A stretch of DNA of 36,176 nucleotides from a virus. The stretch is from positions 1 through 36,176 of the IMG/VR virus record IMGVR_UViG_3300006100_001587. One strand, written 5' to 3'. How positions within the stretch are numbered: position 1 is the first letter of the stretch; every line of letters starts with the position of its first letter. The position numbers and the translations under genes were made by a program. Shown here piece by piece: positions 5,460-33,891 of the stretch. The notes under the pieces were generated by a model. The model searched no databases, was not told where the DNA came from, and saw only the letters and a program-made list of their open reading frames with translations.

Positions 5460-5907
5460 AATAAAACCGGTTAAGGAACTTTCTCCTTCTGCAAAAGCTA
5501 AAAAGGTTTACTATGTAAACCCTTCCGACTTTACTGCTGAACTTAAAAAGTACTACGAAACTGATGTCATTACTGATGAGCTAGCGCTTATGATTAAAAA
5601 CATTGCATATGGACTTGCACACGCTTCAAACTTTATCAATTATACATTTAAAGAAGATGCAATAGGGGATTCCTTAATTAATATGTTTAACGCGTTAAAA
5701 GATAAAAAATACAACTTCGATAAAGGCAGTAACCCGTTCTCATATTTTAATTCAATTTCTTTTAACTGTTGGAGAAGTCGTATTAAAAAGGAAAAGCGTA
5801 TGAGGGACACTTTAGCTGCATACCAAGAAGAGGTTTATAGTGTTATAGGTCCAGGAGTAGGTGTAGATAACCCTGCAAACCCTGCTAAAACAAATGAACA
5901 TAACTAA
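5398..5907 (+). CDS. 55: gp55-like late sigma factor
   Basis: This protein resembles T4 gp55, the sigma-family protein that directs host RNA polymerase to late promoters. The clearest part is a sigma-region-2-like block: an acidic helix with Ala-Ile-Gly-Asp, then Asn-Pro-Phe-Ser-Tyr-Phe and Asn-Cys-Trp-Arg-Ser-Arg-Ile-Lys-Lys-Glu-Lys. The start is uncertain: the frame runs from 5362, but the ATG at 5398 (169 aa) gives the smaller overlap with uvsW and I chose it. The first 50 residues are Lys/Pro-rich and disordered. Its 3' end overlaps gene 47 by 14 nt. Confidence 0.82.
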   Translation: MPLKKSKSPKNELPSQPPVVEIKPVKELSPSAKAKKVYYVNPSDFTAELKKYYETDVITDELALMIKNIAYGLAHASNFINYTFKEDAIGDSLINMFNALKDKKYNFDKGSNPFSYFNSISFNCWRSRIKKEKRMRDTLAAYQEEVYSVIGPGVGVDNPANPAKTNEHN

Positions 5908-6949
5908 ACCTTTAGTTGGAATTTTTTCAGACCCTCATTATGGTGTGCATCGCAACAGCGAAATGTGGCATAAGATCGCTTTGGATCATGCTAGGTGGGC
6001 AGCTGAACAGTTTAAACTTAAAGGCATAAAAGACATAATAATACCAGGAGATATATTTCATGATCGCAATGACATTGCTGTTAATACTTTGCACGTGGCT
6101 ACTGACATTTTTGATATATTGCGTGATTATAACATCATTGTTACTGTGGGTAATCACGATGCTTACTACCGTGATAATTCTTCAGTTAATTCCGTATCCA
6201 TACTTCGCGGTTGGAGTAATATTACTGTTATTGATAAGCTTACGGTCGAAACACTCCAAGGAAAAAAAATAGCGTTTTGTCCGTGGGGACAAGATGTTAA
6301 TGCAATACCTGAGTGTGATTTAATTGTAGGTCATTTTGAAATAAACAGTTTTAAAATGAACTCTTACAAAGTGTGTACTCATGGTTTAAAAACCACCGAT
6401 CTTACTAGTAAAGCACGTCTTATTATTACTGGCCATTTTCATCACAGAGAAGAACGTAAATACGAAAATAGTACAATTCTTTATGTAGGTTCTCCTTATC
6501 AACAGGATTGGGGTGATTATAACACTAAAAAAGGATTGTATTTGTTAAATTTAAATACACTCACATATGATTTTATTGAAAACAACATATCTCCTCAATA
6601 CAATAAAATATATTATAAAGAGTTAGAGGATGGTAAATACACTGTAGAAAATCTTAAAAGCCTTATCAAAGGTAATATAGTTAAGTTTTATATAGATAAA
6701 CAGTTAGAGCCAGATGTAATAGATAAACTTGTTAGAAAACTTACTTCTATCAAACCTGTAGAATTTACTATTGAGTATGATTTCAACGAAACTGCAAAAC
6801 TTAATATTGAAGAAGCTAACGCAAAAGATTTCAATATAAGTGTAGAAAATTCCATAGCTGAATTTATTGATTTACTTGAAATAAAGAGTAAAGATAAAGT
6901 GAAAGCTTACGTTAACGAACTTTATCATAAAGCACAAAATATAACATGA
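5894..6949 (+). CDS. 47: gp47-like (SbcD/Mre11) nuclease subunit
   Basis: This 351-residue calcineurin-like metallophosphoesterase has all family motifs: Asp13-Pro-His15, Gly52-Asp53-Ile-Phe-His, Gly86-Asn-His-Asp89, Gly-His-Phe and Gly-His-Phe-His-His-Arg. With gp46 it forms the Mre11/Rad50-type complex that resects DNA ends and degrades host DNA in T4 infection. T4 gp47 is 339 aa. Here gene 46 lies about 4.3 kb downstream, separated by glycosyltransferase genes. Its stop overlaps the following ATG. Confidence 0.93.
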   Translation: MNITKPLVGIFSDPHYGVHRNSEMWHKIALDHARWAAEQFKLKGIKDIIIPGDIFHDRNDIAVNTLHVATDIFDILRDYNIIVTVGNHDAYYRDNSSVNSVSILRGWSNITVIDKLTVETLQGKKIAFCPWGQDVNAIPECDLIVGHFEINSFKMNSYKVCTHGLKTTDLTSKARLIITGHFHHREERKYENSTILYVGSPYQQDWGDYNTKKGLYLLNLNTLTYDFIENNISPQYNKIYYKELEDGKYTVENLKSLIKGNIVKFYIDKQLEPDVIDKLVRKLTSIKPVEFTIEYDFNETAKLNIEEANAKDFNISVENSIAEFIDLLEIKSKDKVKAYVNELYHKAQNIT

Positions 6950-7743
6950 AAATAGGAGCTGCAATTATAGCCTGTGACCGTGTAGAATATACTAAGCAAA
7001 GCGTAGCTGCTTTGCTCGCTAATAAAGGACCGGTTGAAGATCTTATTTTAATAAACGACGGTGCAACCATACCTGATGGTGTATTACCGGAAGGTATCGA
7101 TATAATTAACAATGTACCACCTTATCAGTCAGTTGGTAGAGCTAAAAATAAAGCAATGCAGGTATTGGTGAATAGAGGTTGTGAACATATATTTCTTATT
7201 GAAAATGATATTATTGTTCAAACATCAGGTGTATGGCAAAAATATATTGATGTTGCTATGGCTACTGGTATTAAGCATTTAAATTTCGGTTACCACGGTC
7301 CTGCTAACAGAACACCTGATTATAAAAAACCTAACCCTAGATATGTTGTAGAATATCCAAACAATATAAAAGTTGCGCTTAACTTACATTGCGTTGGGGC
7401 ATTTTCGTATTTCTATCATACATTTATGAAAGATGTTGGTTATCATGATACTTTTTTTAAGAATGCATGGGAACATGTAGAACTATGTCAAAGAGCTATT
7501 AGTAAAAACTATTTACCTGCTTTTTGGTGGTTCCCTGATGTAGATGGTAGTGATGAAATGCTTAAAGAAATACCAGGCTCTATACAAAATAGCTCAATTA
7601 CACATACTGAAAAATGGACAGAAAACATGAAAAAAGGAGCTGAACATTATAGAAAAATACATGGTGTTTCAGCTGTAGAAAACCCAGATACAGATGTATC
7701 AATTGTATTAAAACGTTTAAAAGAAATTTATAAATGCAAGTAA
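6946..7743 (+). CDS. GT-A fold glycosyltransferase (GT2-like)
   Basis: This 265-residue protein starts with a GT2-like nucleotide-sugar domain (Ala-Ala-Ile-Ile-Ala-Cys-Asp-Arg near 4-11, Leu-Ile-Asn-Asp-Gly near 35-39) and has a Glu86-Asn-Asp88 site in the place of the usual Asp-X-Asp. Trp-Glu-His-Val-Glu near 180 fits the acceptor or catalytic base region. Donor and acceptor are unknown. It is the first of a glycosyltransferase block, coupled to gene 47 by ATGA and overlapping the next gene by 10 nt. Confidence 0.8.
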   Translation: MKIGAAIIACDRVEYTKQSVAALLANKGPVEDLILINDGATIPDGVLPEGIDIINNVPPYQSVGRAKNKAMQVLVNRGCEHIFLIENDIIVQTSGVWQKYIDVAMATGIKHLNFGYHGPANRTPDYKKPNPRYVVEYPNNIKVALNLHCVGAFSYFYHTFMKDVGYHDTFFKNAWEHVELCQRAISKNYLPAFWWFPDVDGSDEMLKEIPGSIQNSSITHTEKWTENMKKGAEHYRKIHGVSAVENPDTDVSIVLKRLKEIYKCK

Positions 7744-8516
7744 CACATCTAGGTATAGCTAACGGCAAAGGTGGCAGATTTGGTAATCAATTATTTTTAA
7801 TTGCCAGTACTATCGGTATTGCTATTAGCAATGATTTGAAATACGGTTTTCCTGATTGGAAAAACAATATATATTTCAAAGAAAAGCTACCTGGTTTAGC
7901 GCCAGGACCTGGTAGTATAATAAAAGAACAAAGTTTCGATTATAACCCAGTAATAATACCAAAAACTTCGTTTACGTATCTTGAAGGTTACTTTCAAAGT
8001 GAAAAATACTTTAACACCCCGGCAGCAATAGATGTAATACGTAACACCTTTACATTTAAAGATGAATACATACAACCAGTAAAAGATTCTTTAAACGGTA
8101 TAACTAATACATGCTCTATACATGTACGCCGTGGTGATTATTTAAATTATCCTGATATACATATACAGCAACCAGTAGAGTACTGGCATAACGCTCAAAT
8201 TAATATAGAAAACAGTACAAATGTTAGCACATATATTGTAATGTCTGATGATATTAATTGGTGTAAAGAAAACAAACACCTGTTTACCACAACAGGCAAA
8301 AAAGTATTGTTTATGCAAGGTAGAAATGATATTGATGATTTTATTATGATGACACTTTGTGAACATAATATTATTACAAACTCTACGTTTTCATGGTGGG
8401 CAGCTTGGTTAAACGCAAATAAAGATAAAGTTGTAGTTACCCCTAGACAGTGGTTTGGTCCTAACGGGCCATCTGATGGTAAAGATCTGTATGTAGAAGG
8501 GTGGATAAAAGTATGA
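7734..8516 (+). CDS. GT11 alpha-1,2-fucosyltransferase-like protein
   Basis: The 260-residue protein shows GT11 motifs: Gly-Gly-Arg-Phe-Gly-Asn-Gln-Leu-Phe at 13-21, His-Val-Arg-Arg-Gly-Asp-Tyr near 130-136 (GDP-fucose binding) and Asn-Ser-Thr-Phe-Ser-Trp-Trp-Ala-Ala-Trp-Leu near 215-226. GT11 enzymes move L-fucose from GDP-fucose to a galactose in alpha-1,2 linkage. No membrane anchor is seen, as in bacterial members. GDP-fucose would be taken from the host. The stop overlaps the ATG of the next gene (ATGA), itself a fucosyltransferase. Confidence 0.9.
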   Translation: MQVTHLGIANGKGGRFGNQLFLIASTIGIAISNDLKYGFPDWKNNIYFKEKLPGLAPGPGSIIKEQSFDYNPVIIPKTSFTYLEGYFQSEKYFNTPAAIDVIRNTFTFKDEYIQPVKDSLNGITNTCSIHVRRGDYLNYPDIHIQQPVEYWHNAQINIENSTNVSTYIVMSDDINWCKENKHLFTTTGKKVLFMQGRNDIDDFIMMTLCEHNIITNSTFSWWAAWLNANKDKVVVTPRQWFGPNGPSDGKDLYVEGWIKV

Positions 8517-9334
8517 AAAAAGAACTATATATAAAAGACTCCAATTTCGCGCATTGTGCATTCAGTAATAATCCAACACCACCAGTAAGTTTTTCTGAGC
8601 ATATTATATGGAACCGTAATGATGCTCCGCATGGAACTGATGTTGTATGTACAGATTATCAGTTAAACAAAGGTAATATTGCATGGTTATTAGAACCTTA
8701 TGATATTAACCTGCAACCATATGAATATGTAAGGTCTAATTCTGGTTTTTATAAAGAAATATGGACGCACGATAAAGAGTTCTTAAACCTACCAAATGCT
8801 AAATGGTATCCTGTAGGGGGATGTTGGTTAGAAGTACCCGAGAGAAAAATATATGAAAAGAGTAAAATGTTTTCTATTATTGCTTCTAATAAAAATCAAT
8901 TACCCGGCCACAAACTAAGACATCAAATTATACAATCTGCCGGTAATAAAGTAGATGCATATGGTCATTCTTATAAACAATTTATAAAAAACTCGATGCA
9001 CAAGATAGAAGGTCTAGCAGAATATCGTTATCATTTTGCAATTGAGAATTGTAAGAGAGATTATTATTTTACAGAAAAACTCATTGATACCTTGATGTCC
9101 GGTACAATTCCTATATACTGGGGGTGTCCTTCTATCGATAAGTTCTTTAATACTGATGGTTTTATTATTTTTAACGACTTGTATGATTTAAAAGAAAAAC
9201 TTAAAAACTGTACAATAGAGTTTTATGATAGTAAAAAAGCTGTTATTGAAGAAAACTTTAAATTAGCTCAAAACTATATTTTATCTGAAGATTGGATATA
9301 TAATAACATATTACAAAATGAAAAGACAATTTGA
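8513..9334 (+). CDS. GT10 alpha-1,3/4-fucosyltransferase-like protein
   Basis: I chose the ATG at 8513, which overlaps the upstream TGA in the common ATGA form; the GTG at 8501 is less likely. The 273-residue product has the GT10 signature at about residues 170-205: Tyr-His-Phe-Ala-Ile-Glu-Asn, Tyr-Phe-Thr-Glu-Lys-Leu, Ser-Gly-Thr-Ile-Pro-Ile-Tyr-Trp-Gly. GT10 enzymes add fucose in alpha-1,3 or alpha-1,4 linkage to N-acetylglucosamine or glucose. Next to a GT11 gene this suggests a doubly fucosylated glycan. The product and its site of attachment are not shown by the sequence. Confidence 0.9.
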   Translation: MKKELYIKDSNFAHCAFSNNPTPPVSFSEHIIWNRNDAPHGTDVVCTDYQLNKGNIAWLLEPYDINLQPYEYVRSNSGFYKEIWTHDKEFLNLPNAKWYPVGGCWLEVPERKIYEKSKMFSIIASNKNQLPGHKLRHQIIQSAGNKVDAYGHSYKQFIKNSMHKIEGLAEYRYHFAIENCKRDYYFTEKLIDTLMSGTIPIYWGCPSIDKFFNTDGFIIFNDLYDLKEKLKNCTIEFYDSKKAVIEENFKLAQNYILSEDWIYNNILQNEKTI

Positions 9335-9632
9335 TACAGGCGCACAAAGAGATACAGATGTTGGTAAACCAAGAATAAGCTTAGTACCTCATGAAGAGTT
9401 AATGAGAGTGGCAAGCCATTTCGTTTCTGGTGGTCAGAAATATGGTTTTAATAACTGGAAAAAAGGTATGAACGCTTCAGTTTATTATGATAGTGCACAA
9501 CGTCACTTAATTAAATACTGGCAGGGAGAAGAAAATGAAGATCATGCTGCTGCAGCGGTTTGGAATATTATGTGCATGATGTGGACAGAAAAAAACAAAC
9601 CTGAACTAGACGATAGAAAAGAATATCAATGA
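9318..9632 (+). CDS. dATP/dGTP diphosphohydrolase-like protein (DUF5664 type)
   Basis: The 104-residue protein matches the small phage family annotated as dATP/dGTP diphosphohydrolase N-terminal domain: Lys-Pro-Arg-Ile-Ser-Leu-Val-Pro, Ala-Ser-His-Phe...Gly-Gln-Lys-Tyr-Gly near 30-43, Asn-Trp-Lys-Lys-Gly-Met, Arg-His-Leu...Trp-Gln-Gly-Glu-Glu-Asn and a C-terminal Ala-Val-Trp-Asn helix. It is MazG-like all-alpha. A role in trimming purine dNTP pools fits a phage with modified guanine, but the reaction is not proven here. It overlaps both neighbours slightly. Confidence 0.72.
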   Translation: MKRQFDTGAQRDTDVGKPRISLVPHEELMRVASHFVSGGQKYGFNNWKKGMNASVYYDSAQRHLIKYWQGEENEDHAAAAVWNIMCMMWTEKNKPELDDRKEYQ

Positions 9633-10384
9633 AAATAGATTTAAAAAACTTAACGTTTACTATACCTGTTAGGATTGATAGCGAAGATAGAGCATTTAAT
9701 CTTAACTACATTATTGAGTATTTATTACATAACTTTGATACAAATATAATTGTGTATGAGAACGGGCCTAGACCTGTATTCAAAAACAAGTACAATATAA
9801 CACATGTTTATGAGCAAAACGATGGTGTTTTTCACCGTACTCGTTATCTCAATAACATGGCTAAACAAGCTACTACAGATTTTATCGCTAACTATGATTG
9901 TGATGTGATATTCCCTGTAAAACAAGTAGTCAAAGCATATAATTTGTTAATTAATAATAGTTTAGACTGTGTTTACCCTTACAGCGGGTACTTTGTTAAT
10001 ATTAAACGAGATGTATTAAATGAAATAGTAGGTTTAGATCCAGTTAATTTGAATCCTGATATATATCAAAACTTCGGTAAAAACTCTTTCGGTGGTGCAG
10101 TTTTTTGGTATAAAAAAGCTTTTATTGAAGGTGGTATGGAAAATGAAAACTGTATTTCTTGGGGATGTGAAGATTGGGAACGTTTGAAACGATTCGAAAC
10201 ACTAGGTTATAAAATTGCTAGAGTTAACGGCCCATTATATCATATTGATCATGTAAGATCTCAAGACAGTAGTGAAGCTAATCCATTTTATAACAATAAC
10301 AGAAAAGAATTTGATAAAATACTAAACTCAAAAAAAGAAGACTTGTTAAAGTACGTTAAAACTTGGTCTTGGGTTAAATCTTAA
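9629..10384 (+). CDS. GT-A glycosyltransferase, GT7-like C-terminal domain
   Basis: The 251-residue protein has a nucleotide-sugar domain with Asp90-Cys-Asp92 as the metal site and a C-terminal block typical of galactosyltransferase family 7 and related GT2 proteins: Gly-Gly-Ala-Val-Phe-Trp-Tyr then Trp-Gly-Cys-Glu-Asp-Trp-Glu, followed by His-Ile-Asp-His. It probably adds a galactose or N-acetylhexosamine to a growing glycan. Coupled to both neighbours by ATGA or TAATG overlaps. Confidence 0.82.
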   Translation: MKIDLKNLTFTIPVRIDSEDRAFNLNYIIEYLLHNFDTNIIVYENGPRPVFKNKYNITHVYEQNDGVFHRTRYLNNMAKQATTDFIANYDCDVIFPVKQVVKAYNLLINNSLDCVYPYSGYFVNIKRDVLNEIVGLDPVNLNPDIYQNFGKNSFGGAVFWYKKAFIEGGMENENCISWGCEDWERLKRFETLGYKIARVNGPLYHIDHVRSQDSSEANPFYNNNRKEFDKILNSKKEDLLKYVKTWSWVKS

Positions 10385-11178
10385 TGAAAAAACTATATAT
10401 TACGTTTAGTGGTAGCTTGTATGAAGATACCACCAGTATAATAGTTGAAAACGGTATAAATGCCGGGGCCGATGAAGTTAAAGTGTACGATGATAAATGG
10501 CTGTTAAAACAACCGTTCTATTATCAGAATAAATGGCTTTGGGATCATCCGCACAAGAGGGGTTTTGGTTGGTATTGCTGGAAACCATTTATAATATATC
10601 ATGCATTACAGGACCTACAAGATGGGGATATAGTGTTATTTACTGATGCTGATTGCTACCCGATCGGTAATTTAAATGTATTGTTTGATCAGTGTAATAA
10701 AGATGGTGGTATAATGTTATTTGCAGCTTGCGGTCAAAAACACATACATTGGTGTAAAAAAGACTGCTATATTGTTATGGGACAAGATAATGAGAAATAC
10801 TATGACGTACAAGCTGGTGTAGCACGTTTTATGTTATTTCAAAAAGGTAAATGGAGAGCTACGCAGTTTTTAATGGAATGGTTAACATACTGTGTTAACC
10901 CTTTAGCTACAACATTTGATAAAAGTGTGTTAGCTGAAGAACCAGTTGAATTTGTCGAGCACAGAACTGAGCAAGCTATAATGACCAATCTTGCGCATAA
11001 ATACGGTTTAAAGCTTTATAGAGAAGCATGTCAAGCAGGTAACAACTATAAAAACGATAAAGAACTATACGAGCAATTATTTATTCAGTATAATCCCACT
11101 GACGTGCCAGGAGATGCTAAAGTTACTCTCGAACCTATAGGTTCAAAATACGCAAATGTTAATTGTGTGATGCAGTAG
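10384..11178 (+). CDS. GT-A type glycosyltransferase
   Basis: The 264-residue protein contains Phe-Thr-Asp88-Ala-Asp90-Cys as a clear Asp-X-Asp motif and an aromatic N-terminal region (Gly-Trp-Tyr-Cys-Trp-Lys-Pro near 62-68) seen in phage and capsule glycosyltransferases. A late His-Arg-Thr-Glu-Gln motif may be part of the acceptor site. The exact family and sugar are unknown. It ends the first glycosyltransferase run; gene 46 starts 33 nt later with its own AT-rich leader. Confidence 0.78.
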   Translation: MKKLYITFSGSLYEDTTSIIVENGINAGADEVKVYDDKWLLKQPFYYQNKWLWDHPHKRGFGWYCWKPFIIYHALQDLQDGDIVLFTDADCYPIGNLNVLFDQCNKDGGIMLFAACGQKHIHWCKKDCYIVMGQDNEKYYDVQAGVARFMLFQKGKWRATQFLMEWLTYCVNPLATTFDKSVLAEEPVEFVEHRTEQAIMTNLAHKYGLKLYREACQAGNNYKNDKELYEQLFIQYNPTDVPGDAKVTLEPIGSKYANVNCVMQ

Positions 11179-11211: not shown

Positions 11212-13035
11212 ATGCGCTATGTTTACTTTAAAACTTTAAAACTATCTAACTTTTTATCTGTTGGTAAAAAACCGGTAGAGATTAATTTTAAGTCTGGCTT
11301 AAATATTATTACAGGTAAAAATTATGATAAAGCTGATCGTGCGAATGGCGTTGGAAAGTCCACTGTTGCTGACGCAGTGCATTTTGTTTTGTATGGTAGC
11401 ACTATACGCGATCTTAAAAAAGAAAACATAGTTAACAATCAAGCGCCTGATTCTCTTTGTGAAGTAGAGCTGGATTTTGATATACATAAAGGTGAAGATG
11501 TAGATCGGTGTAAGATTATTAGATCTATTAATCCTACTAGATGTGTGTTCTTTATTAACGACGTAGATGTATCTAGATCAGGTATACCTCAAACAACAGA
11601 ACTTATTACAGAAACAATTAAAACATCTTCTGAAATATTTCAGAACAGTGTTATAATGACCATAAACAATACCATACCGTTTATGGCTCAAAAAAAGGTA
11701 GAGAAACGTAAATTTATTGAAGGTATACTTGGATTAGAAGTATTCGGTAATATGCTCTTACAGGCACGTGCCGACTTTAATGAGGTTAAGAAAAGCCTGG
11801 ATATAGAAGGTACTAAACTTGACGAAACTACTCGTTCACTTTCAGACGCTATTAAACAAAAAGATACATACGAAGAGAGTAAAAAAAAGAGACTTGTTGT
11901 ACTTCAAACACGACAAAAAAACAACGAACAAGAATTAAATACTTTAAGCGAGAAGCTCAGTAAGTTTGATGCTGTAGACTCGGCAGCCCTTAAAAAAATA
12001 GAAGATAACGTTTCTGTGTTAAAAACGGCAGAAAAAATATGTGATAAGAAAATAGCTGCTATCAATAAAATCATTACAGAAGCTGAAACCTATGTTAAAC
12101 TTAATAATGATCGCTCTAAAAAGCTTAAAAAAGTAGATAATAAATGCCCGCACTGTGGTAAAGATCTTGCTGAAGCTGCAAACAAGCAATATGATGTTGA
12201 TTTGGCTGAATGTATGTCTGAAGTACAGAAGTTTGTAGAAATAATTAATGCAGAAAAACCTCGACTAGTAGAAGCTCAAAACGAACTAGATAGGGTCGAA
12301 AATGCTATTGTTTTAAATCAAAAGAAATTAAATGATTTTACTATACGCAAAAAAGAAGTAGAAAACATTAATAACAGAGTAAAACAGTTAAACGAATGGC
12401 AGCAATCTTTAGTTGTAGATATCGATCATCTTAACAAAGATTCCAACAACTTTCAAGAAGCTATCGATAAGATAAACTTAAGACAGGAAGAAATTAAAAA
12501 TAACATCATATTGTTACAAGATAGAATTGATATTATTGAATCCGCTAAGTTTATTACTGACGAAAAGGGAGTAAAGTCGTTTATTGTTAAGAAAATACTA
12601 CAAGTGCTTAATACAAGGCTGTCTTTGTATCTACGTAAGCTTGAAAGTAATAGTATTGTTACTTTTAATGAGTTTTTTGAAGAAACTATTACTAATGAAA
12701 GAGGTACAAACTGTAGTTATTTTAACTTTTCTGGGGCAGAACGTAAAGCTATTGACCTCGCAATGTTGTTTACATTTCAAGATATTCGCAGAGCACAAGC
12801 AGATGTTTGGATAAATTTAAGTATGTTTGACGAGTTATTTGACTCGTCTTTAGACGAGAAAGGTATTGAGTTAGTACTTGATATTCTTAAAGATCGAGTA
12901 GATAATTATAATGAATCAATTTATATCATTTCTCATCGTAAAGAAAGCAAAAAATACTGTATTGGTGGGGAAATAGTCTACCTTGAGAAGAAAAACGGTA
13001 TAACTACAAGAACTACAAATTATGACATTTCCTAA
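11212..13035 (+). CDS. 46: gp46-like (SbcC/Rad50) ATPase subunit
   Basis: This is a 607-residue ABC-type ATPase of the Rad50/SbcC family. Walker A is Asn45-Gly-Val-Gly-Lys-Ser-Thr51; a long coiled coil (about 175-310 and 335-450) is joined by a zinc hook Cys312-Pro-His-Cys315; the signature Phe-Ser-Gly-Ala-Glu-Arg-Lys and a Walker B-like Met-Phe-Asp-Glu-Leu-Phe-Asp lie near the C-terminus. Slightly longer than T4 gp46 (560 aa). It should pair with the gp47 homologue at 5894. It overlaps the next glycosyltransferase by 14 nt. Confidence 0.93.
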   Translation: MRYVYFKTLKLSNFLSVGKKPVEINFKSGLNIITGKNYDKADRANGVGKSTVADAVHFVLYGSTIRDLKKENIVNNQAPDSLCEVELDFDIHKGEDVDRCKIIRSINPTRCVFFINDVDVSRSGIPQTTELITETIKTSSEIFQNSVIMTINNTIPFMAQKKVEKRKFIEGILGLEVFGNMLLQARADFNEVKKSLDIEGTKLDETTRSLSDAIKQKDTYEESKKKRLVVLQTRQKNNEQELNTLSEKLSKFDAVDSAALKKIEDNVSVLKTAEKICDKKIAAINKIITEAETYVKLNNDRSKKLKKVDNKCPHCGKDLAEAANKQYDVDLAECMSEVQKFVEIINAEKPRLVEAQNELDRVENAIVLNQKKLNDFTIRKKEVENINNRVKQLNEWQQSLVVDIDHLNKDSNNFQEAIDKINLRQEEIKNNIILLQDRIDIIESAKFITDEKGVKSFIVKKILQVLNTRLSLYLRKLESNSIVTFNEFFEETITNERGTNCSYFNFSGAERKAIDLAMLFTFQDIRRAQADVWINLSMFDELFDSSLDEKGIELVLDILKDRVDNYNESIYIISHRKESKKYCIGGEIVYLEKKNGITTRTTNYDIS

Positions 13036-14209
13036 CAATATTGGTGCTTTTGGTGCACCACAATTACCACTTGGGGCACCTCAATTACCTTTAGGTGCCC
13101 CTGTAATAGGCACTCCTTTTAATAATAATTCTGCCCCTGCTGTTCTTGAAGTACCAGGCGGCATGAAAAGAGCGGTAAGTTACGCTGCAGACCATCAAGG
13201 ATGTGGTTTTTGGAGAATGCATTGGCCGGAAGCCGTTATTAATGGTAATCAGCTAGGTATCATTAATAATAACAATTTTATGATTTTACAAGAGAACTTT
13301 TATCAAGGTATTTCTTGTGTGAGAATACAAAGACAGGTTACACCCACTCAATTGCAATTTGTTAAAGCATTAAGAGCTATTTCTGAAAGAACCAATAAAT
13401 TTAAAATTTATTATGAAATTGATGATGTAATATTTGCTGAAGATATACCTCTTTATAATAAAGCTCGTGAAGCATTTACCGATCCTAATATAGCAAAGAC
13501 AGCTATTGAAATAATGAGGTTGTGTGATGGTATTACTACCCCTACCACGTACATGTCTAAATACTATGAAGAGAAGTCAGGTATAAAAGGTATAACTATA
13601 CCTAACTATATACCGAAGTTTTGGATGGATCGGTTTTATAGTAAAACTAAAATTTCAGAAAATTACGAAACATTTAAAAAGCGTCCTCGGGTAGGATACA
13701 TTGGTAGCCCTACTCATTTTAATATAGCAGGTACCCCTGGCATAAAAGATGATTTCGGAGACATCATTGACGTAATTAAAAAAACCGTTAAACAATTTAA
13801 ATGGGTATTGATGGGTGGTTGCCCTATGGAATTGGCAGAATTTGTACGCAGCGGTGATATAGAATATATCAGTTGGGTTAAATTGTGGGATTATCCTTAT
13901 GCATTTAATGCTTTAAATGTTAATATAGTTATTGCTCCTCTACAAAATAATAAATTTAACCTTGCTAAAGCTAACATTAAACACATTGAAGCTGGAGCAC
14001 TAGGCATACCTTGCGTGTGTCAAGATTTAGAACCTTATAAAGAAGCACCTTTAAGGTTTAATACTGCCGACGAAATGGTTAGTATTATTAAAAGAACACT
14101 AAATGATCGTCGGATCTATTTAACTGAATCAGATGTAGCGCGTAAAAATGCTACCAAATATTGGCTAGAAGATCACATTCAAGAACACTGTAATCTATAT
14201 TTCTCTTGA
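13022..14209 (+). CDS. GT-B type glycosyltransferase (GT4-like) with repeat-bearing N-terminus
   Basis: The 395-residue protein has a two-domain GT-B look: an N-terminal acceptor domain (about 40-220) and a C-terminal nucleotide-sugar domain beginning at Arg-Val-Gly-Tyr-Ile-Gly-Ser-Pro-Thr near 223-231, with His-Ile-Glu-Ala-Gly-Ala-Leu-Gly-Ile-Pro near 321-330, the usual GT4 Glu region. Residues 10-28 contain repeated Gly-Ala-Pro-Gln-Leu-Pro-Leu units ahead of the catalytic part, which is unusual. Substrate unknown. Its stop is 32 nt before the DNA polymerase start. Confidence 0.78.
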   Translation: MTFPNNIGAFGAPQLPLGAPQLPLGAPVIGTPFNNNSAPAVLEVPGGMKRAVSYAADHQGCGFWRMHWPEAVINGNQLGIINNNNFMILQENFYQGISCVRIQRQVTPTQLQFVKALRAISERTNKFKIYYEIDDVIFAEDIPLYNKAREAFTDPNIAKTAIEIMRLCDGITTPTTYMSKYYEEKSGIKGITIPNYIPKFWMDRFYSKTKISENYETFKKRPRVGYIGSPTHFNIAGTPGIKDDFGDIIDVIKKTVKQFKWVLMGGCPMELAEFVRSGDIEYISWVKLWDYPYAFNALNVNIVIAPLQNNKFNLAKANIKHIEAGALGIPCVCQDLEPYKEAPLRFNTADEMVSIIKRTLNDRRIYLTESDVARKNATKYWLEDHIQEHCNLYFS

Positions 14210-14222: not shown

Positions 14223-14247
14223 GTACACATAATACTTAACTGTGTAC
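14223..14247 (+). promoter_or_regulatory. Hairpin enclosing the DNA polymerase GTG start
   Basis: GTACACA (14223-14229) and TGTGTAC (14241-14247) form a perfect 7-bp stem with an 11-nt A/T-rich loop. The GTG start codon (14242-14244) lies in the 3' strand of the stem. T4 gp43 represses its own translation by binding a hairpin next to its start; this element is placed similarly. Function here is inferred. Confidence 0.55.
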
Positions 14248-16806
14248 CGTAACGTTTATTATAATCAGAGAGATAGTGTGTGTCATCTTTTTACTTGGGA
14301 TGATAAAGGTAACCGTATAGTTAATAAAGTACCTTACCAGCCTTATTTTTATATTGAGACTGATTCAAGTAATGCTGATGCATTATCTATTTTTAATACT
14401 AAACTTAAAAAGAGAATATTTAAAAGTAACTTTGATCGTAATAAGGCTGCTCAAGACGGGGCTATTAAAAGACTTTACCATAATATTCAAGTAGAACAGC
14501 AATTTCTCATTGAAACATATAAAGATGATTACGAGAAGCCTGAGTTTTCTGCTAACCCGTTAAAAGTCTGTTTTCTTGATATTGAAGTTTACTCTCCAGA
14601 TGAATTCCCTGAAGCTAAAGACGCTAAACACCCAATAAATCTTATCACAATTTATGATAATTTATCTGAAACGTTTTATACATGGGGATGTAAACCGTAT
14701 ACGCCTACTCGTAATAATGTAGTATATGTTGAATGTACTAGCGAGTATGACTTGTTAGAAAAGTTTTTATTGTTTTGGGAAAATGGTTATCACCCTGATA
14801 TTTTATCGGGATGGAATACTGACTTTTTCGACTTCCCGTATTTAATTAACCGTATCAATCAGCTTTTGGGAGAAGATGCAGCTAAGCGTTTATCTCCTGT
14901 AAAGAGTCTATGGTGCCGTAAAGGTATATTTGTAAAAGGACAAGAACTTGATCGTTGGTACATTCACGGTATATCTGCAATGGATTATCTTGAAGTGTAT
15001 AGAGGTTTTGCGCGTGGGTTGTTAGAATCATATGCTCTAAACTTTGTAGCTCAACATGAGTTAGGTGAAGGTAAATTAGCTATAAATGCTACTAATTTAG
15101 CTTCTCTCTCTACTAATGATTGGAACAATTTTGTAGACTATAACATTCAAGACGTTGATCTACTTGTACGGATGGAAAAGAAATTACAGTTCTTTAAGAT
15201 CATTCGTATGTTAGCATATAAAGGGTTAACCTCTTTTGAAGCAGCTTTAGGTAAAGTTTCTATTGTCACCGGGTGCGTAGCACTACAAGCATATAAACAT
15301 GGTATGGTTATACCTACGTTCGTTGATGGGCCTATCAGAGAAGAAATACAAGGCGGATTTGTTAGGGACCCTGAAAGAGGCCTACAAAAGTCAATTGTGA
15401 GTTATGACGCTAACTCACTATACCCTAACACTATTATTACCCTGAATATATCCCCTGAGACTAAGTTTGGTAAGATAGTTAGTAAGAATGATAAGGAAAT
15501 TGTTATACGTTATGGTAACAATAAAGAGCAGCCTATATCGCATGAAAGATTTATACAGTTCATGCAAACCGAGAAACTAGCACTTTCTAAGGCTAATGTA
15601 CTATACACACAAAAGAAAAAAGGGGTTGTGCCGGCTTTGATTGACGGATTGTATAACGAACGTGTAAAAAATAAAAACCAATACGTAGAACTTAAAAAGA
15701 AACTAAGTAAACTAACCCCTGACACAGATGAATACAAAACGTGTAAGTTTAATATGGAACGAGCCGACACCATACAGCACGTCATTAAAATTCTACTTAA
15801 TTCCATATATGGTGTTTTTGCTAATAAGTTTAGCCCTATATGCGATAGTGATCACGCCGGTAGCATTACTCTTACTGGTCAGTCTGTGGTTAAACAGGCA
15901 TCTGATATCATTGATCAATACGCTAAAGAAAAATTTGGCTACACGGGTAAATCGTTGACTATATATAACGATACGGATAGTACTCATGTTACTATTCAAC
16001 CGCTGTTGGATCAAATGAAACTAAACATATTAACTGATAACAAAGTTAATAAAGAAGGTTTAGCGTTTATCGACGATGAACTAGGAGTGTATCTCAATGA
16101 ACATATCAAACAATGGGCTAAGGATAAACTTAACTCTATTGATCCGCGTTACTATTTCAAGCGTGAATCTATTTGCGATGTGGGTGTTTATCTTGAAAAA
16201 AAGCGCTACATTATACATGTTTTAAACGATGAAGGGGCGGATGTAAATAAGTTTAAATACGTTGGAGTTGAAATTGCTCGTTCTACTACACCTAAAAAAG
16301 CTAAAGAACTCATTAAGAAAGTAATTGAAAATAGTTTACTAGTACAAGATCAAAATAAAGCTAATACAATTTATAGAGATGTTTATGACGGGTTTAAAAA
16401 ACTTTCTATTGATGATGTAGCTATTAGAGGTGGATTAAGTGATATAGAAAAACATGAAGTAAGAGCAGAAGGATTTAAAATAGCTAAAGGCACCCCTAAT
16501 CATGTAAAAGGTGCTATATGGTATAATATGCTTTTGAAACACCGTAATTTGGAAACCAAATATGAACGTATCACTTCAGGTGGTAAAGTTAAAAAGATAT
16601 ATATTGCTCCAAATAAGTACAGAATTGATACTCTTTGCTATCCGGTTAGCTTTCCACCAGAATTAAACGATTTTCAAGTTGATTATGAAGAAATGTTCGA
16701 TACTATTATCGTACCACCAGTGAAAGCTGTATATGAAGCTCTCAACTGGCACTTACCTCAACTAAACAATCAAGCACAAACCGACTTATTTGATTTATTC
16801 ACATGA
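14242..16806 (+). CDS. 43: Family B DNA polymerase (gp43-like)
   Basis: The 854-residue replicative polymerase has both proofreading and polymerase motifs. Exo I is Phe-Leu-Asp-Ile-Glu near 111-115, Exo II Gly-Trp-Asn-Thr-Asp-Phe-Phe-Asp near 190, Exo III Tyr-Asn-Ile-Gln-Asp-Val-Asp near 300. Motif A Asp-Ala-Asn-Ser-Leu-Tyr-Pro is near 389, motif B Asn-Ser-Ile-Tyr-Gly near 520, motif C Asp-Thr-Asp-Ser near 577-580. The start is GTG; an upstream in-frame TAA at 14230 rules out a longer form. Slightly shorter than T4 gp43 (898). Its stop overlaps the DpdA-like gene by ATGA, coupling polymerase to the modification genes. Confidence 0.95.
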   Translation: MYRNVYYNQRDSVCHLFTWDDKGNRIVNKVPYQPYFYIETDSSNADALSIFNTKLKKRIFKSNFDRNKAAQDGAIKRLYHNIQVEQQFLIETYKDDYEKPEFSANPLKVCFLDIEVYSPDEFPEAKDAKHPINLITIYDNLSETFYTWGCKPYTPTRNNVVYVECTSEYDLLEKFLLFWENGYHPDILSGWNTDFFDFPYLINRINQLLGEDAAKRLSPVKSLWCRKGIFVKGQELDRWYIHGISAMDYLEVYRGFARGLLESYALNFVAQHELGEGKLAINATNLASLSTNDWNNFVDYNIQDVDLLVRMEKKLQFFKIIRMLAYKGLTSFEAALGKVSIVTGCVALQAYKHGMVIPTFVDGPIREEIQGGFVRDPERGLQKSIVSYDANSLYPNTIITLNISPETKFGKIVSKNDKEIVIRYGNNKEQPISHERFIQFMQTEKLALSKANVLYTQKKKGVVPALIDGLYNERVKNKNQYVELKKKLSKLTPDTDEYKTCKFNMERADTIQHVIKILLNSIYGVFANKFSPICDSDHAGSITLTGQSVVKQASDIIDQYAKEKFGYTGKSLTIYNDTDSTHVTIQPLLDQMKLNILTDNKVNKEGLAFIDDELGVYLNEHIKQWAKDKLNSIDPRYYFKRESICDVGVYLEKKRYIIHVLNDEGADVNKFKYVGVEIARSTTPKKAKELIKKVIENSLLVQDQNKANTIYRDVYDGFKKLSIDDVAIRGGLSDIEKHEVRAEGFKIAKGTPNHVKGAIWYNMLLKHRNLETKYERITSGGKVKKIYIAPNKYRIDTLCYPVSFPPELNDFQVDYEEMFDTIIVPPVKAVYEALNWHLPQLNNQAQTDLFDLFT

Positions 16807-17609
16807 TTAAAATATCTCACGAATCACCTTTAAGTATGCTCGAGATCTCTCGTACATACAACGATTATGATTATGCTCTCGTGCATTTATTTGAAGAGCA
16901 ACCAACTTACTATAAATTTTTTGAAGATAGTGTTAAAGCCGGTAGGCATGTTTTGTTAGATAACTCTATCTTTGAACTAGGTACATCTTTTGATCCTAAG
17001 CGTTATGCATATTGGATAGAAAAACTCAACCCTACAGAATATATCATACCTGATGTTTTAGAAGATTGTAACGGTACGATTGAATCTGCCAAGAAATGTC
17101 TATGGAGAGAATGGGACTTCATTAATAGTTCCAAGACCATTGGTGTAGTACAGGGTAAGACTTACGCTGAATTAGTTAAATGTTATGTAACTTTAGATCA
17201 AGAAATTGATGTAGATAAGTTAGCAATTTCATTCGATTATTCTTATTACCTCAAACTATTTCCACACCCTAACAAGTGGGTGTCTTATATGATGGGCAGA
17301 GTAATGACATTAACTCAATTAATGAATGATGGCATTATTAATAAAGATAAACCTCATCATTTATTAGGTTGTGCTTGCCCGAGAGAGTTTAGCTTTTATC
17401 AAGGATCGGAATATAACTGGATAGAAACATTAGATACTTCTTCTCCTATTGTACATGGTATTAAAAGAGTTAGATATTCTGATGCTATAGGTAACTGGAA
17501 AAAAGAATCTACTAAACTTATAGATCTTTTAGATGTTGTACCAGACGAAATACAAGAAAGAATTATTGCAAGTAATTTGATTGAGTTTAGAAAATATGTT
17601 AATGGATGA
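16803..17609 (+). CDS. dpdA: DpdA-like DNA guanine transglycosylase
   Basis: The 268-residue protein shows the order of motifs of the tRNA-guanine transglycosylase TIM barrel: Leu-Leu-Asp53-Asn-Ser-Ile-Phe-Glu (compare Asp-Ser-Gly-Gly-Phe-Gln in TGT), Pro-Asp84, Val-Val-Gln117-Gly118, His-Leu-Leu-Gly189 with Pro193 (compare Leu-Met-Gly-Val-Gly-Thr-Pro) and Glu-Thr-Leu-Asp211-Thr-Ser-Ser-Pro, where Asp211 fits the nucleophile. The C-terminal zinc site of tRNA enzymes is absent. Known phage paralogues (DpdA) exchange guanine for 7-deazaguanine bases in DNA. Neighbouring formyltransferase and QueF genes, plus FolE and QueD, support this over a tRNA role. Subfamily not assigned. Confidence 0.8.
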   Translation: MIKISHESPLSMLEISRTYNDYDYALVHLFEEQPTYYKFFEDSVKAGRHVLLDNSIFELGTSFDPKRYAYWIEKLNPTEYIIPDVLEDCNGTIESAKKCLWREWDFINSSKTIGVVQGKTYAELVKCYVTLDQEIDVDKLAISFDYSYYLKLFPHPNKWVSYMMGRVMTLTQLMNDGIINKDKPHHLLGCACPREFSFYQGSEYNWIETLDTSSPIVHGIKRVRYSDAIGNWKKESTKLIDLLDVVPDEIQERIIASNLIEFRKYVNG

Positions 17610-17836
17610 CCACCCTTGAAACTATAACCAACTCTGTATATGCTAACTATCCCCATCTCCTGGCAAATAATATTTTTATTAGGGATTATTATTTTTGGGA
17701 TTGTATACGTAATTGTGAACTCCCGGTAAAAGAATTATCTGAAGTCAAACCTTACCTAATAAAACACGGTATTGTAGACTTTACGCTGGTAATTTATTTT
17801 AGTGATAATACAATAGGTTACCGTCTAAAAATATGA
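17606..17836 (+). CDS. Small unknown protein inside the deazaguanine operon, 76 aa
   Basis: I do not recognise this protein. It is 76 residues, mixed alpha/beta, with several aromatic residues (Tyr-Tyr-Phe-Trp-Asp-Cys near 28-33) and a C-terminal strand pair. It is joined to the DpdA-like gene upstream and the formyltransferase gene downstream by ATGA overlaps, which implies translation with both. An accessory role in base modification is possible but unproven. Confidence 0.75.
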   Translation: MTTLETITNSVYANYPHLLANNIFIRDYYFWDCIRNCELPVKELSEVKPYLIKHGIVDFTLVIYFSDNTIGYRLKI

Positions 17837-18417
17837 AACGAACTTTAATATGGAAAACTTTCTTTTCTCAGAGCGGATCTGAGATATACGAGATATCTAA
17901 AAATATCGGTAAGTTTCCAGATGCTATTATAACTAATAAAAGTCTTGAAGAAATGGATAAAATTAATCCAGATCTTCTCGAGCGCTGTTTTGATCGTTTT
18001 ATTTTTTTACCTAAAAAGCCATCTATAGAAGAATATAGAGAGGCTATAAGAAATGTTGATGTTATTACGTTGCACGGTTATCTCCGTATAATACCGCCAG
18101 AAATTTGCAATAGATTTAAAATATATAATGGCCATCCAGGTCTTATAACTAAGTTTCCTGAATTAAAAGGTAAAGATCCGCAAGCTAAAGTATGGTATAA
18201 TCATGCTGAAAGACCGTACTACCAGCACGGCCATGTAATTCACGAAGTTACAGCTAAGGTAGATGATGGTAGAGTGGTTTCTGAAAAAGAATTTTACAGT
18301 AAAAACATATATAGTGATTTCAACGGTTTAGATGAATACATTAAAGCATTACACGTTCTAGCAATTGAAAATTGGGTTGGCTTTATGCGTAAAACTATAT
18401 TAAATAACAAACTATGA
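17833..18417 (+). CDS. dpdN: Formyltransferase of the PurN/Fmt fold, DpdN-like
   Basis: The 194-residue protein has the folate-dependent formyltransferase pattern: Ser-Gln-Ser-Gly-Ser near 12-16, the catalytic Asn99-Gly-His101-Pro-Gly-Leu (Asn-X-His), and Val-Asp144-Asp145-Gly, which supplies the third catalytic Asp. Family members move a formyl group from 10-formyl-tetrahydrofolate to an amine. Purine synthesis (PurN) is less likely: no other purine genes are present, and the gene is locked between a DpdA-like gene and queF. A dPreQ1 formyltransferase (DpdN) has been predicted in phages with 7-(formylamino)methyl-7-deazaguanine. The exact substrate is inferred. Confidence 0.68.
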   Translation: MKRTLIWKTFFSQSGSEIYEISKNIGKFPDAIITNKSLEEMDKINPDLLERCFDRFIFLPKKPSIEEYREAIRNVDVITLHGYLRIIPPEICNRFKIYNGHPGLITKFPELKGKDPQAKVWYNHAERPYYQHGHVIHEVTAKVDDGRVVSEKEFYSKNIYSDFNGLDEYIKALHVLAIENWVGFMRKTILNNKL

Positions 18418-18989
18418 GATTAAATTATAAAGCTGCTATTTGCGGTGCTCATTCACAAGGTAAAACTACGCTAGTAAAAGCACTAAAAGATGATCATTTT
18501 CTAGATGATCAGCATTTTAGCTTTAGAACTAATCTCACTAGAGGGTTAAAAGAATTGAATGTACCTATTAATGAAGGAGGTACTTCTCTAACTCAATACT
18601 TGGTAATGGCTAGGCATTTAGAATATGCTTTGACCCCGGGTAACTGGATTTTAGATAGAGGAGCTTTAGATGGTATTGCTTATACATCTTATTTTTATGA
18701 AAAAGAACAAGTCAGTAAAGAAGTATATCAAGCAGCTTTAGTTATATATGAGTCTTTATTAAAGACATATGATAGGATTTTTTATGTTGTACCTGAACTT
18801 GAATTAAAAGATGATGGAGAGAGAAGTACTAACAAAGAGTTCTTTGATGGTGTAGTAAAGCAATTTGATTTTTATATTAAACATCATTCAATGCCTACTG
18901 ATAAACTTGTTTATGTAATGGGTTCTGTTGAAGATAGAGTTAAAATTATAACCGACACAATGAAGAAAGATTTTACTAATGAGCTATAA
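18414..18989 (+). CDS. P-loop NTPase/kinase-like protein (AAA_28, NadR-like)
   Basis: The 191-residue protein has Walker A Gly11-Ala-His-Ser-Gln-Gly-Lys-Thr18 and a later Ile-Leu-Asp-Arg-Gly-Ala-Leu-Asp-Gly-Ile-Ala-Tyr block near 78-89, typical of the NadR-like AAA_28 group and of nucleoside or nucleotide kinases. The reaction is unknown. It lies in the run polymerase-DpdA-unknown-formyltransferase-this-QueF with overlapping ends, so a link to nucleotide or deazaguanine metabolism is plausible. A generic dNMP kinase is the alternative. Confidence 0.75.
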   Translation: MRLNYKAAICGAHSQGKTTLVKALKDDHFLDDQHFSFRTNLTRGLKELNVPINEGGTSLTQYLVMARHLEYALTPGNWILDRGALDGIAYTSYFYEKEQVSKEVYQAALVIYESLLKTYDRIFYVVPELELKDDGERSTNKEFFDGVVKQFDFYIKHHSMPTDKLVYVMGSVEDRVKIITDTMKKDFTNEL

Positions 18990-19899
18990 TACTAATAATA
19001 TTGATAAAGTACTTGGTCAGAGAGTTGATTCTCCTACCACCTACACGCCTGAAATTTTAGTGCGTGAAGAACGTCAACGTAATCGTACCTATTTAGGTTT
19101 ACAAAACGATTCTTTACCTTTTATAGGATATGATATCTGGAATGGCTACGAGTGTAGTGCTTTAACAGATAGTGGTTTACCTGTTACTTGCGTAGCTAAA
19201 GTGGTGTATCCTGCTACTAATCCGTATATTGTAGAGTCTAAATCTATGAAGCTCTATTGGAATTCGTTTAATATGCAACCAATGGGTAAAAACACTAAAG
19301 AAGTGCTTAAGAACATTAAGCAAACCGCTTCTAAAGATTTATCATCATTATTAGAAACAGAGGTTAGTGTGGAGTTGTTCTCACAAATAGCTGATCCTGA
19401 AACAGAAGAAAATAGAGTAATATGGTTTTCAGATCATAGTTCTAGAATTTGGCGCCCACTTGAACAAATTAAAAGTGCAGAAAAAATTAAATTTACTGTA
19501 TTTAATGAAAATGCGGATTTATTAGTAGCTAACGATACTGAAACTACTGAACAGCATTTTTATATGAGCACGTTATTGCGCTCTAACTGCAAAATTACAA
19601 AGCAACCGGACTCAGGTGATATTTTTATCTATTATAAAGGAGATAAAGAAGTAACTGAGCAATCGTTACTAGAGTGGATTGTATCGTTCCGTAATGAGTG
19701 TCATTTTCACGAAGAAATATGTGAAGCTGCATATAAACGTTTATGGGACTTACTACAGCCCGAAGAATTAATGGTAACTTGTTATTATGCAAGACGTGGT
19801 GGTTGGGATATAGTTCCTACTCGTGCATCTCATAAGAAATTACTTAACAAATATCTTGTTAACGCGAAATCTCCTTACTTTAAGTTCCCACGTCAATAA
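18979..19899 (+). CDS. queF: QueF, NADPH-dependent preQ0 reductase
   Basis: The 306-residue protein matches the long, two-domain (E. coli-type) QueF. Visible motifs: Leu-Pro-Phe-Ile-Gly-Tyr-Asp-Ile-Trp near 46-54, Glu86-Ser-Lys-Ser-Met-Lys-Leu-Tyr, the catalytic Ser-Asn-Cys204 with Gln-Pro-Asp211 at the same seven-residue spacing as E. coli Cys190/Asp197, Ser-Phe-Arg with Phe-His244-Glu245, and Tyr-Ala-Arg-Arg-Gly-Gly-Trp-Asp-Ile near 270-278. It reduces the nitrile of preQ0 to the aminomethyl of preQ1. It overlaps the kinase-like gene by 11 nt and closes the modification run. In the phage it would supply preQ1 for DNA. Confidence 0.93.
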   Translation: MSYNTNNIDKVLGQRVDSPTTYTPEILVREERQRNRTYLGLQNDSLPFIGYDIWNGYECSALTDSGLPVTCVAKVVYPATNPYIVESKSMKLYWNSFNMQPMGKNTKEVLKNIKQTASKDLSSLLETEVSVELFSQIADPETEENRVIWFSDHSSRIWRPLEQIKSAEKIKFTVFNENADLLVANDTETTEQHFYMSTLLRSNCKITKQPDSGDIFIYYKGDKEVTEQSLLEWIVSFRNECHFHEEICEAAYKRLWDLLQPEELMVTCYYARRGGWDIVPTRASHKKLLNKYLVNAKSPYFKFPRQ

Positions 19900-27322: not shown

Positions 27323-27660
27323 TGTCTAATAAAATAACAACTCAAAGCTATTTTATAAAGAGGCTTAAAGATTCAGGTTATATGGTCTTTAAGATGTTTG
27401 ATAACTACGGGGAAGCAGACCCACGTTCATGGACTGTAATGATAGATCCTGGCAATGCATCAGTATTTTGTACATGCTATGTTAACCATGAAGGCATGTT
27501 TGGTGAAACGTTTTTTGAATTTTATGACGGTGGTCAATATATTCCTGAACGTTTTAAGTTGAAAACTGATTCAATAGAGGTTATAATAAGCTATTTAGTA
27601 AAATACGGTATTAACAATAAAACAGAAACATACAAAAATAATTTAATATATGTCAAATAA
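27322..27660 (+). CDS. Hypothetical protein, 112 aa
   Basis: I cannot assign a function. The protein is alpha/beta with an N-terminal helix, Trp-Thr-Val-Met-Ile-Asp-Pro near 37-43, two Cys residues (Cys-Thr-Cys near 50-52) and a Phe-Phe-Glu-Phe-Tyr-Asp strand. It resembles conserved small proteins seen beside replication genes in marine T4-like phages, but this is from memory only. It is joined to the clamp gene (TAATG overlap) and overlaps folE by 11 nt. Confidence 0.75.
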   Translation: MSNKITTQSYFIKRLKDSGYMVFKMFDNYGEADPRSWTVMIDPGNASVFCTCYVNHEGMFGETFFEFYDGGQYIPERFKLKTDSIEVIISYLVKYGINNKTETYKNNLIYVK

Positions 27661-28309
27661 GACTGAACACCCTAAACTACCTACAGCAAATAGTAATGTC
27701 CCTCGTACAGAAGACGAAAAGACAGAAATCATTAACAATGCTACTAAAGCATATGAAAACTTCTTAGATGCATTACAAATAGATTGGCGTAACGATCCTA
27801 ATAGTGAAGGCACACCTAAACGTGTAGCTAAAGCATATGTTTGTGATTTAATTCGTGGTTGTTATGACCAACCACCGAAGATTACTACTTTTCCGTCAGA
27901 TGGTTATGATGGCATTGTAAGTCAGTGTAATATACCATTAACTTCAATGTGTTCTCACCATCATTTAGCTTTTACAGGTGTTGCACATGTTGCTTATATA
28001 CCTAGTAAAGAAGGTCGAGTTATTGGTTTATCTAAACTTAACCGTATTGTAGAACACTATGCAAGACGTCCACAAGTTCAAGAAGCTCTTACAGTACAAA
28101 TACATAAAGCTATTGATGAAATTTGTGAAAAGAACCAGGGAGTAGCGGTTGTAGTAAAGTGCTCTCATACATGTGCTTGCCATAGAGGTGTTAAGCACCA
28201 CGGTGCTGTAATGATTACATCTAAGCTTTCTGGGGATTTTATGGATGAACCTGAATGCAGGAAAGAATTTTATGATTTTGTTGCATCCGCAGAAAGAAGT
28301 TCTAAGTAG
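27650..28309 (+). CDS. folE: FolE, GTP cyclohydrolase I
   Basis: The 219-residue protein is a clear type I GTP cyclohydrolase. Zinc ligands Cys101, His104 and Cys175 sit in Ser-Met-Cys-Ser-His-His and His-Thr-Cys-Ala-Cys-His-Arg-Gly-Val; Val-Ile-Gly-Leu-Ser-Lys-Leu-Asn-Arg (124-132) and Arg-Arg-Pro-Gln-Val-Gln-Glu (139-145) bind GTP and form the active site. It makes dihydroneopterin triphosphate, the first intermediate of both folate and 7-deazaguanine synthesis. With QueD, QueF and the DpdA-like enzyme here, the deazaguanine role is the better explanation; it may also raise folate for the formyltransferase. A stem-loop follows the stop. Confidence 0.96.
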   Translation: MSNKTEHPKLPTANSNVPRTEDEKTEIINNATKAYENFLDALQIDWRNDPNSEGTPKRVAKAYVCDLIRGCYDQPPKITTFPSDGYDGIVSQCNIPLTSMCSHHHLAFTGVAHVAYIPSKEGRVIGLSKLNRIVEHYARRPQVQEALTVQIHKAIDEICEKNQGVAVVVKCSHTCACHRGVKHHGAVMITSKLSGDFMDEPECRKEFYDFVASAERSSK

Positions 28310-32538: not shown

Positions 32539-32613
32539 GCCCTTGTAGCTCAGTGGTAGAGCACCAGTTTTGTAAACTGGCTGTCACTGGTTCAATCCCA
32601 GTCGGGGGCTCCA
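32539..32613 (+). tRNA. tRNA-Thr(TGT)
   Basis: Complete cloverleaf: acceptor GCCCTTG/CGGGGGC with G-T pairs, D-arm AGCTC/GAGC, anticodon stem CCAGT/ACTGG with loop TTTGTAA (anticodon TGT, reads ACA), T-loop TTCAATC and an encoded CCA. Confidence 0.95.
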
Positions 32614-32626
32614 TTTTAATATTTTT

Positions 32627-32728
32627 GCTCTAGTGGCGGAATCAGTCGCGGGGGTGTGAAAGCCCTTGTACCTGTAGGATGCGCGCAATCCAAAGGGCGT
32701 GGAGGTTTAAACCCTCCCTAGAGCACCA
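32627..32728 (+). tRNA. Atypical tRNA-like RNA, anticodon unclear
   Basis: Acceptor strands GCTCTAG/CTAGAGC pair perfectly and are followed by A and an encoded CCA. A GGAGG/CCTCC T-arm with loop TTTAAAC and a GCG/CGC D-stem (loop GAATCAGT, like tRNA-Leu) are present. Between D and T stems lie about 51 nt, more than even class II tRNAs need. No anticodon arm with a 7-nt loop and T33 forms cleanly; a GGG/CCC stem gives a 9-nt loop with GTGTGAAAG. A competing hairpin GCCCTT/AAGGGC (32662-32667 with 32693-32698) encloses GGAT/ATCC. It may be a class II tRNA with an insertion, or a tRNA-like RNA with another role. Confidence 0.6.
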
Positions 32729-32830: not shown

Positions 32831-32849
32831 AAATAACTATCTTTAATTT

Positions 32850-32924: not shown

Positions 32925-32957
32925 TCTTCTTTAGAGGTTTACGGAATAAAATCTCCA

Positions 32958-32980: not shown

Positions 32981-32981
32981 A

Positions 32982-33746: not shown

Positions 33747-33798
33747 ATTTGTTAATTACCCGTTGTTATTATTTAATACAGGTTTAAATATGTTTTTT

Positions 33799-33875: not shown

Positions 33876-33891
33876 TTTAGTAAGTATTATT

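Follow-up and report, generated by a model that had tools for sequence, protein, structure and literature searches.

Gene content and layout of the locus

The DNA analysed here, referred to as the window, is the whole of IMG/VR virus record IMGVR_UViG_3300006100_001587 (36,176 bases) and forms part of a tailed-phage genome. Between positions 14242 and 19899 it carries genes for a family B DNA polymerase (PolB), a DpdA-like transglycosylase, an open reading frame (ORF) of 76 amino acids (aa), a formyltransferase, a P-loop kinase and QueF, in this order and with start/stop overlaps of 4 to 11 bases. Judged from its sequence, the block very probably represents a phage operon for making a formylated 7-deazaguanine and installing it in the phage's own DNA. 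Systems of this kind are already known, and the window is a further instance, with a strongly linked kinase. The genes of the block and of the associated preQ0 pathway are:

14242-16806, + strand: family B DNA polymerase (PolB); PF00136 6e-23, PF03104 6.8e-19; its stop overlaps the dpdA start
16803-17609, + strand: DpdA-type transglycosylase, 268 aa, short and without the zinc subdomain; PHROG 19058 1e-51
17606-17836, + strand: 76-aa ORF without Pfam or PHROG match
17833-18417, + strand: PurN-type formyltransferase, DpdN-like; PF00551 (Formyl_trans_N) 5.8e-9
18414-18989, + strand: AAA_28 P-loop kinase; PF13521 9.5e-11
18979-19899, + strand: QueF, NADPH-dependent preQ0 reductase; PF14819 (QueF_N) 3.6e-28, PF14489 (QueF) 4.4e-19
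27650-28309, + strand: FolE, GTP cyclohydrolase I; PF01227 (GTP_cyclohydroI) 1.3e-48, NF006826 162.2 bits at a cut-off of 162
1-276, - strand: QueD, truncated by the window edge; PF01242 (PTPS) 2.9e-12, PHROG 2389 'QueD-like' 2.6e-24

An earlier note on this DNA had described overlapping polymerase, transglycosylase, formyltransferase and QueF genes with FolE and QueD nearby, and the coordinates, the Pfam matches of PolB, formyltransferase and QueF, and the presence of both pathway genes in the window agree with that description. Absent from it were the 76-aa ORF and the P-loop kinase, both inside the overlapping run. The block is beyond chance, because dozens of viral contigs carry the same one. 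The 76-aa ORF was found at 34 of 100 loci, its conservation being limited to the window's close relatives. Scans of the block region for sigma-70 promoters and terminators gave results at or below chance.

A short DpdA-type transglycosylase

The 268-aa protein had no Pfam match under 1e-3. Among annotated proteins it is closest to the DpdA of Flavobacterium phage immuto (50.6% identity) and to the homologue of Campylobacter CP220-type phages (42%). An AlphaFold model built on 43 viral homologues (predicted local distance difference test score, pLDDT, 92.6) aligns with tRNA-guanine transglycosylase (TGT) with a Z of 17.9 over 229 residues (root-mean-square deviation 3.0; Foldseek E 6e-9), the modelled fold being the one expected of a phage DpdA. 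Residues D53, D84, Q117 and D211 are invariant across the 43 sequences, and we read them, by motif rather than by residue-level structure, as the catalytic Asp pair and the base-binding Asp/Gln of TGT, equivalent to Zymomonas mobilis D102/D156/Q203/D280.

Features of the tRNA-specific enzymes are missing from the protein: no CxCxxC zinc motif was found in its sequence, and in a Pfam TGT search with the 43 family members the best E was 0.028, the window protein itself reaching 0.2 (11.1 bits against a cut-off of 26.3). The suggestion of a TGT fold lacking the zinc site of the tRNA enzyme thus held up, and with phage DpdAs as its best relatives the protein does not fall among tRNA-specific TGTs. 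Searching PDB sequences with a profile of DpdA returned nothing up to E 1, and the DpdA of Youna2, used as a scan query, returned no locus.

The short zinc-less type may correspond to the 'DpdA3' of the literature nomenclature; Cui et al. 2023 reportedly described formylated dPreQ1 in phages and introduced the names DpdN for the enzyme and DpdA3 for the DpdA subfamily. In Campylobacter Firehammervirus (CP220) deoxyguanosine is reported to be replaced completely by a 7-deazaguanine (PMC10273834), and the 42% identity links the window protein to the DpdA of such a phage. By analogy with these fully replaced relatives, it is plausible that some or all guanines are replaced in the window phage, as the earlier note had proposed.

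Formyltransferase, QueF and supply of preQ0

In the formyltransferase N99, H101 and D144 are conserved in 67-68 of 68 sequences. This N-H-D triad is kept although the protein scores 36.5 bits against the PurN equivalog TIGR00639, far below the cut-off of 150.1, and among annotated phages relatives were found only in four immuto records. The gene context, in which it is coupled to DpdA and QueF, is that of DpdN, presumably the dPreQ1 formyltransferase, and the protein is likely to formylate (d)preQ1 in a DpdN-like manner. QueF scores above the Pfam cut-offs and below that of NCBIfam TIGR03138 (226.8 versus 293). Since its C204, D211, H244-E245 and the NADPH motif E86SKSxKLY are kept (57-58 of 58 sequences), it is expected to convert preQ0 to preQ1. 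FolE and QueD lie in the window, and the larger contigs of relatives encode QueC in 13 and QueE in 12 of the 15 searched, in line with the proposed DpdA-type 7-deazaguanine DNA-modification operon. Of 34 sequence clusters with sufficient flank, 18 show the order DpdA, formyltransferase, kinase, QueF, and presence of the formyltransferase changes at least five times on the DpdA tree.

From these genes we infer the following chemistry. FolE and QueD, with QueE and QueC encoded outside the window, would provide preQ0, whose nitrile QueF would reduce to the amine of preQ1. DpdA would swap guanine for the deazaguanine base, and the formyltransferase would cap the preQ1 amine, giving 7-(formylamino)methyl-7-deazaguanine as the predicted base. 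Each of the last steps may take place on the free base, a nucleotide or DNA.

FolE, QueD and QueF are common to the queuosine pathway, and 48 phages with preQ0-pathway genes and without DpdA have been discussed as queuosine- or folate-related (PMC6884629), so the genes might contribute to the host's tRNA queuosine or folate metabolism rather than act on phage DNA. We regard this as very improbable in the present case, given a DpdA-type transglycosylase instead of a zinc tRNA-TGT, a block located between polymerase and RecA-like genes, and a set of tRNAs with the anticodons tgt, cca, tgg, gcc, cat and tct, none of queuosine type:

32539-35564: six tRNA genes (Thr, Trp, Pro, Gly, Met, Arg)

The ORFs at 33703-34086 and 34480-34752 overlap two of these tRNA genes and may be spurious.

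Comparison with known systems

The nearest counterpart is found in Flavobacterium phage vB_FspM_immuto (MW353175 to MW353177), where DpdA, a small ORF, formyltransferase, kinase and QueF follow in the same order as in the window. Its proteins are annotated as DpdA, formyltransferase, thymidylate kinase and QueF, the last three being 43%, 36% and 42% identical to those of the window, and QueC, QueD, QueE and FolE are encoded upstream of the operon. It differs in that its polymerase is of family A and lies some 3 kb downstream, whereas the family B polymerase of the window lies upstream and overlaps, and in a MazG-like gene upstream of DpdA. CP220 shares with the window an AAA_28 kinase immediately downstream of DpdA, but its DpdA has no adjoining formyltransferase or QueF, an HD-domain/P-loop gene lies upstream, and the reported base is dADG. 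Phages of the DpdA1 type, such as Enterobacteria phage 9g (dG+), likewise combine a TGT-fold DpdA with FolE, QueD, QueE and QueC, but their DpdA is longer and of another subfamily, no AAA_28 kinase lies near it and no formyltransferase is annotated.

The earlier note had further suggested that expression of the modification genes is tied to the polymerase. The ATGA overlap at position 16803 is real in the lineage of the window, but the arrangement is not general: a polymerase was detected within 3 kb in 13 of 43 DpdA loci, which is a lower bound, and several DpdA1 phages also have clamp and polymerase beside DpdA. Polymerase adjacency was dropped as a general key signal, and the linkage is lineage-specific.

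Some related loci contain further genes. Locus L198 on a contig of a metagenome-assembled genome, a close relative of immuto, holds a DpdA-kinase-QueF operon without formyltransferase, in which a GNAT acetyltransferase (8477-8926; PF13508 1.9e-8) lies between the kinase (7975-8520) and QueF (8916-9818), which suggests an N-acetylated dPreQ1 as product; an inserted 332-aa protein of unassigned family (6980-7975) is also present. At locus L088 DpdA and formyltransferase are followed by a gene of the IMP dehydrogenase/GMP reductase family (9373-10332; PF00478 3.1e-56), and L092 has a similar gene no more than 3 kb from its DpdA; such enzymes could shift the guanine nucleotide pool.

The kinase is the most constant partner of the short DpdA type

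PF13521 (AAA_28) matched in all 35 kinase family members, and the P-loop residues G11 and G16-K17-T18, together with D81-R82, Q61 and R137, are invariant or nearly so. By sequence the family is nearest to deoxynucleoside kinase (dNK), NadR, deoxyguanosine kinase and thymidylate kinase (TMPK), and the model of the window protein gives a Z of 17.3 to NadR and 16.5 to human deoxyguanosine kinase. P-loop, DR motif, LID arginine and the modelled kinase fold place it in the AAA_28/dNK/TMPK superfamily. Two variations of the gene were seen: at locus L074 (6123-7079) the kinase ORF directly after DpdA has 318 aa, about 140 aa above the usual, with a C-terminal extension, and the CP220 record (L002) contains a second, more distant AAA_28 family copy (5416-5931, 94 bits).

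Scans returned 93 loci in viral contigs; grouped at 85% identity together with annotated relatives and the window, they gave 46 DpdA clusters. Among clusters with 1.5 kb or more of flanking sequence at each end, 32 of 38 encode an AAA_28 kinase no more than 3 kb from DpdA. A stricter downstream flank rule gave 29 of 34, and none of 18 DpdA1/DpdA2 control loci has such a kinase near DpdA. The near misses among the controls were a match of 0.0037 in a longer ORF just over 3 kb away (L107) and a 138-aa ORF with a P-loop motif and no kinase-profile match (L120). The Fisher value of 8e-10 for this linkage ignores relatedness and is not to be read as a probability. Searches of whole control phage records gave weak matches in KVP40 and ACP17 alone (25.5 and 15.8 bits, compared with 174 for CP220 and 209 for immuto), and no AAA_28 kinase match in the DpdA1 phage records.

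Many phages have deoxynucleoside monophosphate (dNMP) or thymidylate kinases near their replication genes, and both PHROG 2107 and PHROG 761 bear the label thymidylate kinase, so that the gene might be an ordinary dNMP kinase that raises the supply of deoxynucleoside triphosphates (dNTPs) and merely travels with the replication cluster. The distribution makes this doubtful. The kinase is absent near the 18 control genes, and DpdA accompanies it at every kinase locus (54 of 54) whose upstream flank exceeds 2.5 kb; close relatives of the window dominate this set, but kinases of only 39-50% identity also occur in it. Among 50,697 phage records, exactly 18 (four immuto, 14 Campylobacter) have a relative of the kinase at 80% coverage or more, and this DpdA, at more than 40% identity, occurs in precisely those 18.

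The position of the kinase varies: it follows the formyltransferase, directly follows or directly precedes DpdA, or lies about 2 kb before it, and the link is therefore not one frozen arrangement. It is kept without formyltransferase and QueF in L043, L089, L090, L094, L096 and CP220, and within the window's own clade in L043 and L184; in L091 it sits elsewhere on the contig. The kinase thus tracks the DpdA type, not the enzymes that decorate the base, and is the most constant partner of the short DpdA, which is the addition of this analysis to the known picture.

A possible role in the nucleotide pool

The kinase follows DpdA rather than decoration, and CP220 has it even though no phosphate is required for the final base reported there. 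Most simply, it would act on the nucleotide substrate or product of DpdA. In the pathway that we propose, a free deoxyguanosine nucleotide or nucleoside would be the substrate on which the short DpdA type swaps the base, and the kinase would lift the product towards the triphosphate, guanine being replaced before replication; we give this a probability of roughly 0.38. Phosphorylation of the base-exchanged deoxynucleo(s)tide by the kinase, yielding a modified dGTP analogue before replication, is the likeliest of the roles considered, although held at somewhat less than even odds; an ATP-dependent helper of DpdA and an ordinary dNMP kinase are each rated lower, and about equally. In dZ-DNA systems of the cyanophage S-2L type (PurZ, MazZ, DatZ) nucleotide enzymes alter the dNTP pool before replication; these would be alike in working if our proposal is right, although enzymes and base are others and homology to the window is claimed only for one protein:

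9318-9632, + strand: dATP/dGTP diphosphohydrolase-like (MazZ-like) protein; PF18909 2.9e-25

This gene was rejected as a core part, being present in only two of 15 searched contigs, both of close relatives, and in none within 3 kb of DpdA. By its family it possibly performs a dGTP to dGMP step, its membership in the system being uncertain.

Bacterial DpdA needs the ATPase DpdB, and by analogy the kinase-fold protein could be an ATP-driven accessory of DpdA or a DNA-handling helper, with DpdA acting only after replication on finished DNA. DpdA has indeed been described as post-replicative, exchanging bases in the DNA polymer (PMC12707154), and tight linkage in many gene orders is what a complex would show. 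We nevertheless consider an accessory unlikely, as the kinase residues are kept and the protein matches nucleo(s)tide kinases in sequence and structure, not motor ATPases. Other DpdA lineages moreover bear kinases of two further families: in a Bacillus-phage clade a PHROG 761 kinase overlaps DpdA (it matches PHROG 761 although phmmer found no relation to PDB kinases), and Brevundimonas phage StAshley has a dNMP kinase (PHROG 139) about 6 kb from DpdA. The use of two other families suggests that an activity, not a specific interface, is wanted.

Several points besides the described mechanism weigh against exchange in the nucleotide pool. Every TGT-fold enzyme known to us acts on a polynucleotide. 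A nucleotide pool is also at odds with the work of Crippen et al. 2019, who reportedly detected no phosphates of dADG in Campylobacter during infection. The linkage counts are inflated by common descent; no AAA_28 kinase was found in the searched stretch or record of L087, L088 (both fragments), L200 and L201, and L003, L097 and L098 carry or adjoin a kinase of another family. Protein charge, tried as a marker of DNA versus nucleotide substrates, was uninformative, DpdA1 and DpdA2 being mostly acidic too. MazG-like neighbours (7 of 43 loci versus 1 of 18 for DpdA1/DpdA2) do not clearly separate the groups.

Other features of the window and its relatives

In the immuto-type clade and in L200, MazG/PRA-PH-like pyrophosphohydrolase genes stand beside DpdA: L001 (14282-14806), L074 (4598-5128), L083 (9850-10431), L198 (5143-5802) and L200 (182-553). 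As a signal, MazG-like neighbours are suggestive in a single clade only. In the window, predicted glycosyltransferases (GT11, GT10, GT7C-like, GT17, PHROG 7162) are found around the replication module at 6946-11178, 13022-14209 and 32982-33746.

Implications for 7-deazaguanine phages

The exchange of guanine for 7-deazaguanines is a known kind of anti-restriction armour, and some phages are known to replace guanine in full. With its near-obligate link to the short DpdA, the kinase of deoxynucleotide type offers a concrete and testable partner, and a clear alternative to post-replicative exchange. If base exchange does take place in the nucleotide pool, it would be, to our knowledge, the first case of a transglycosylase giving rise to a base-substituted dNTP, and it would account for complete replacement in these phages. 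The version with a formyltransferase recurs in many uncultivated viral contigs, and the formylated base may therefore be common in nature.

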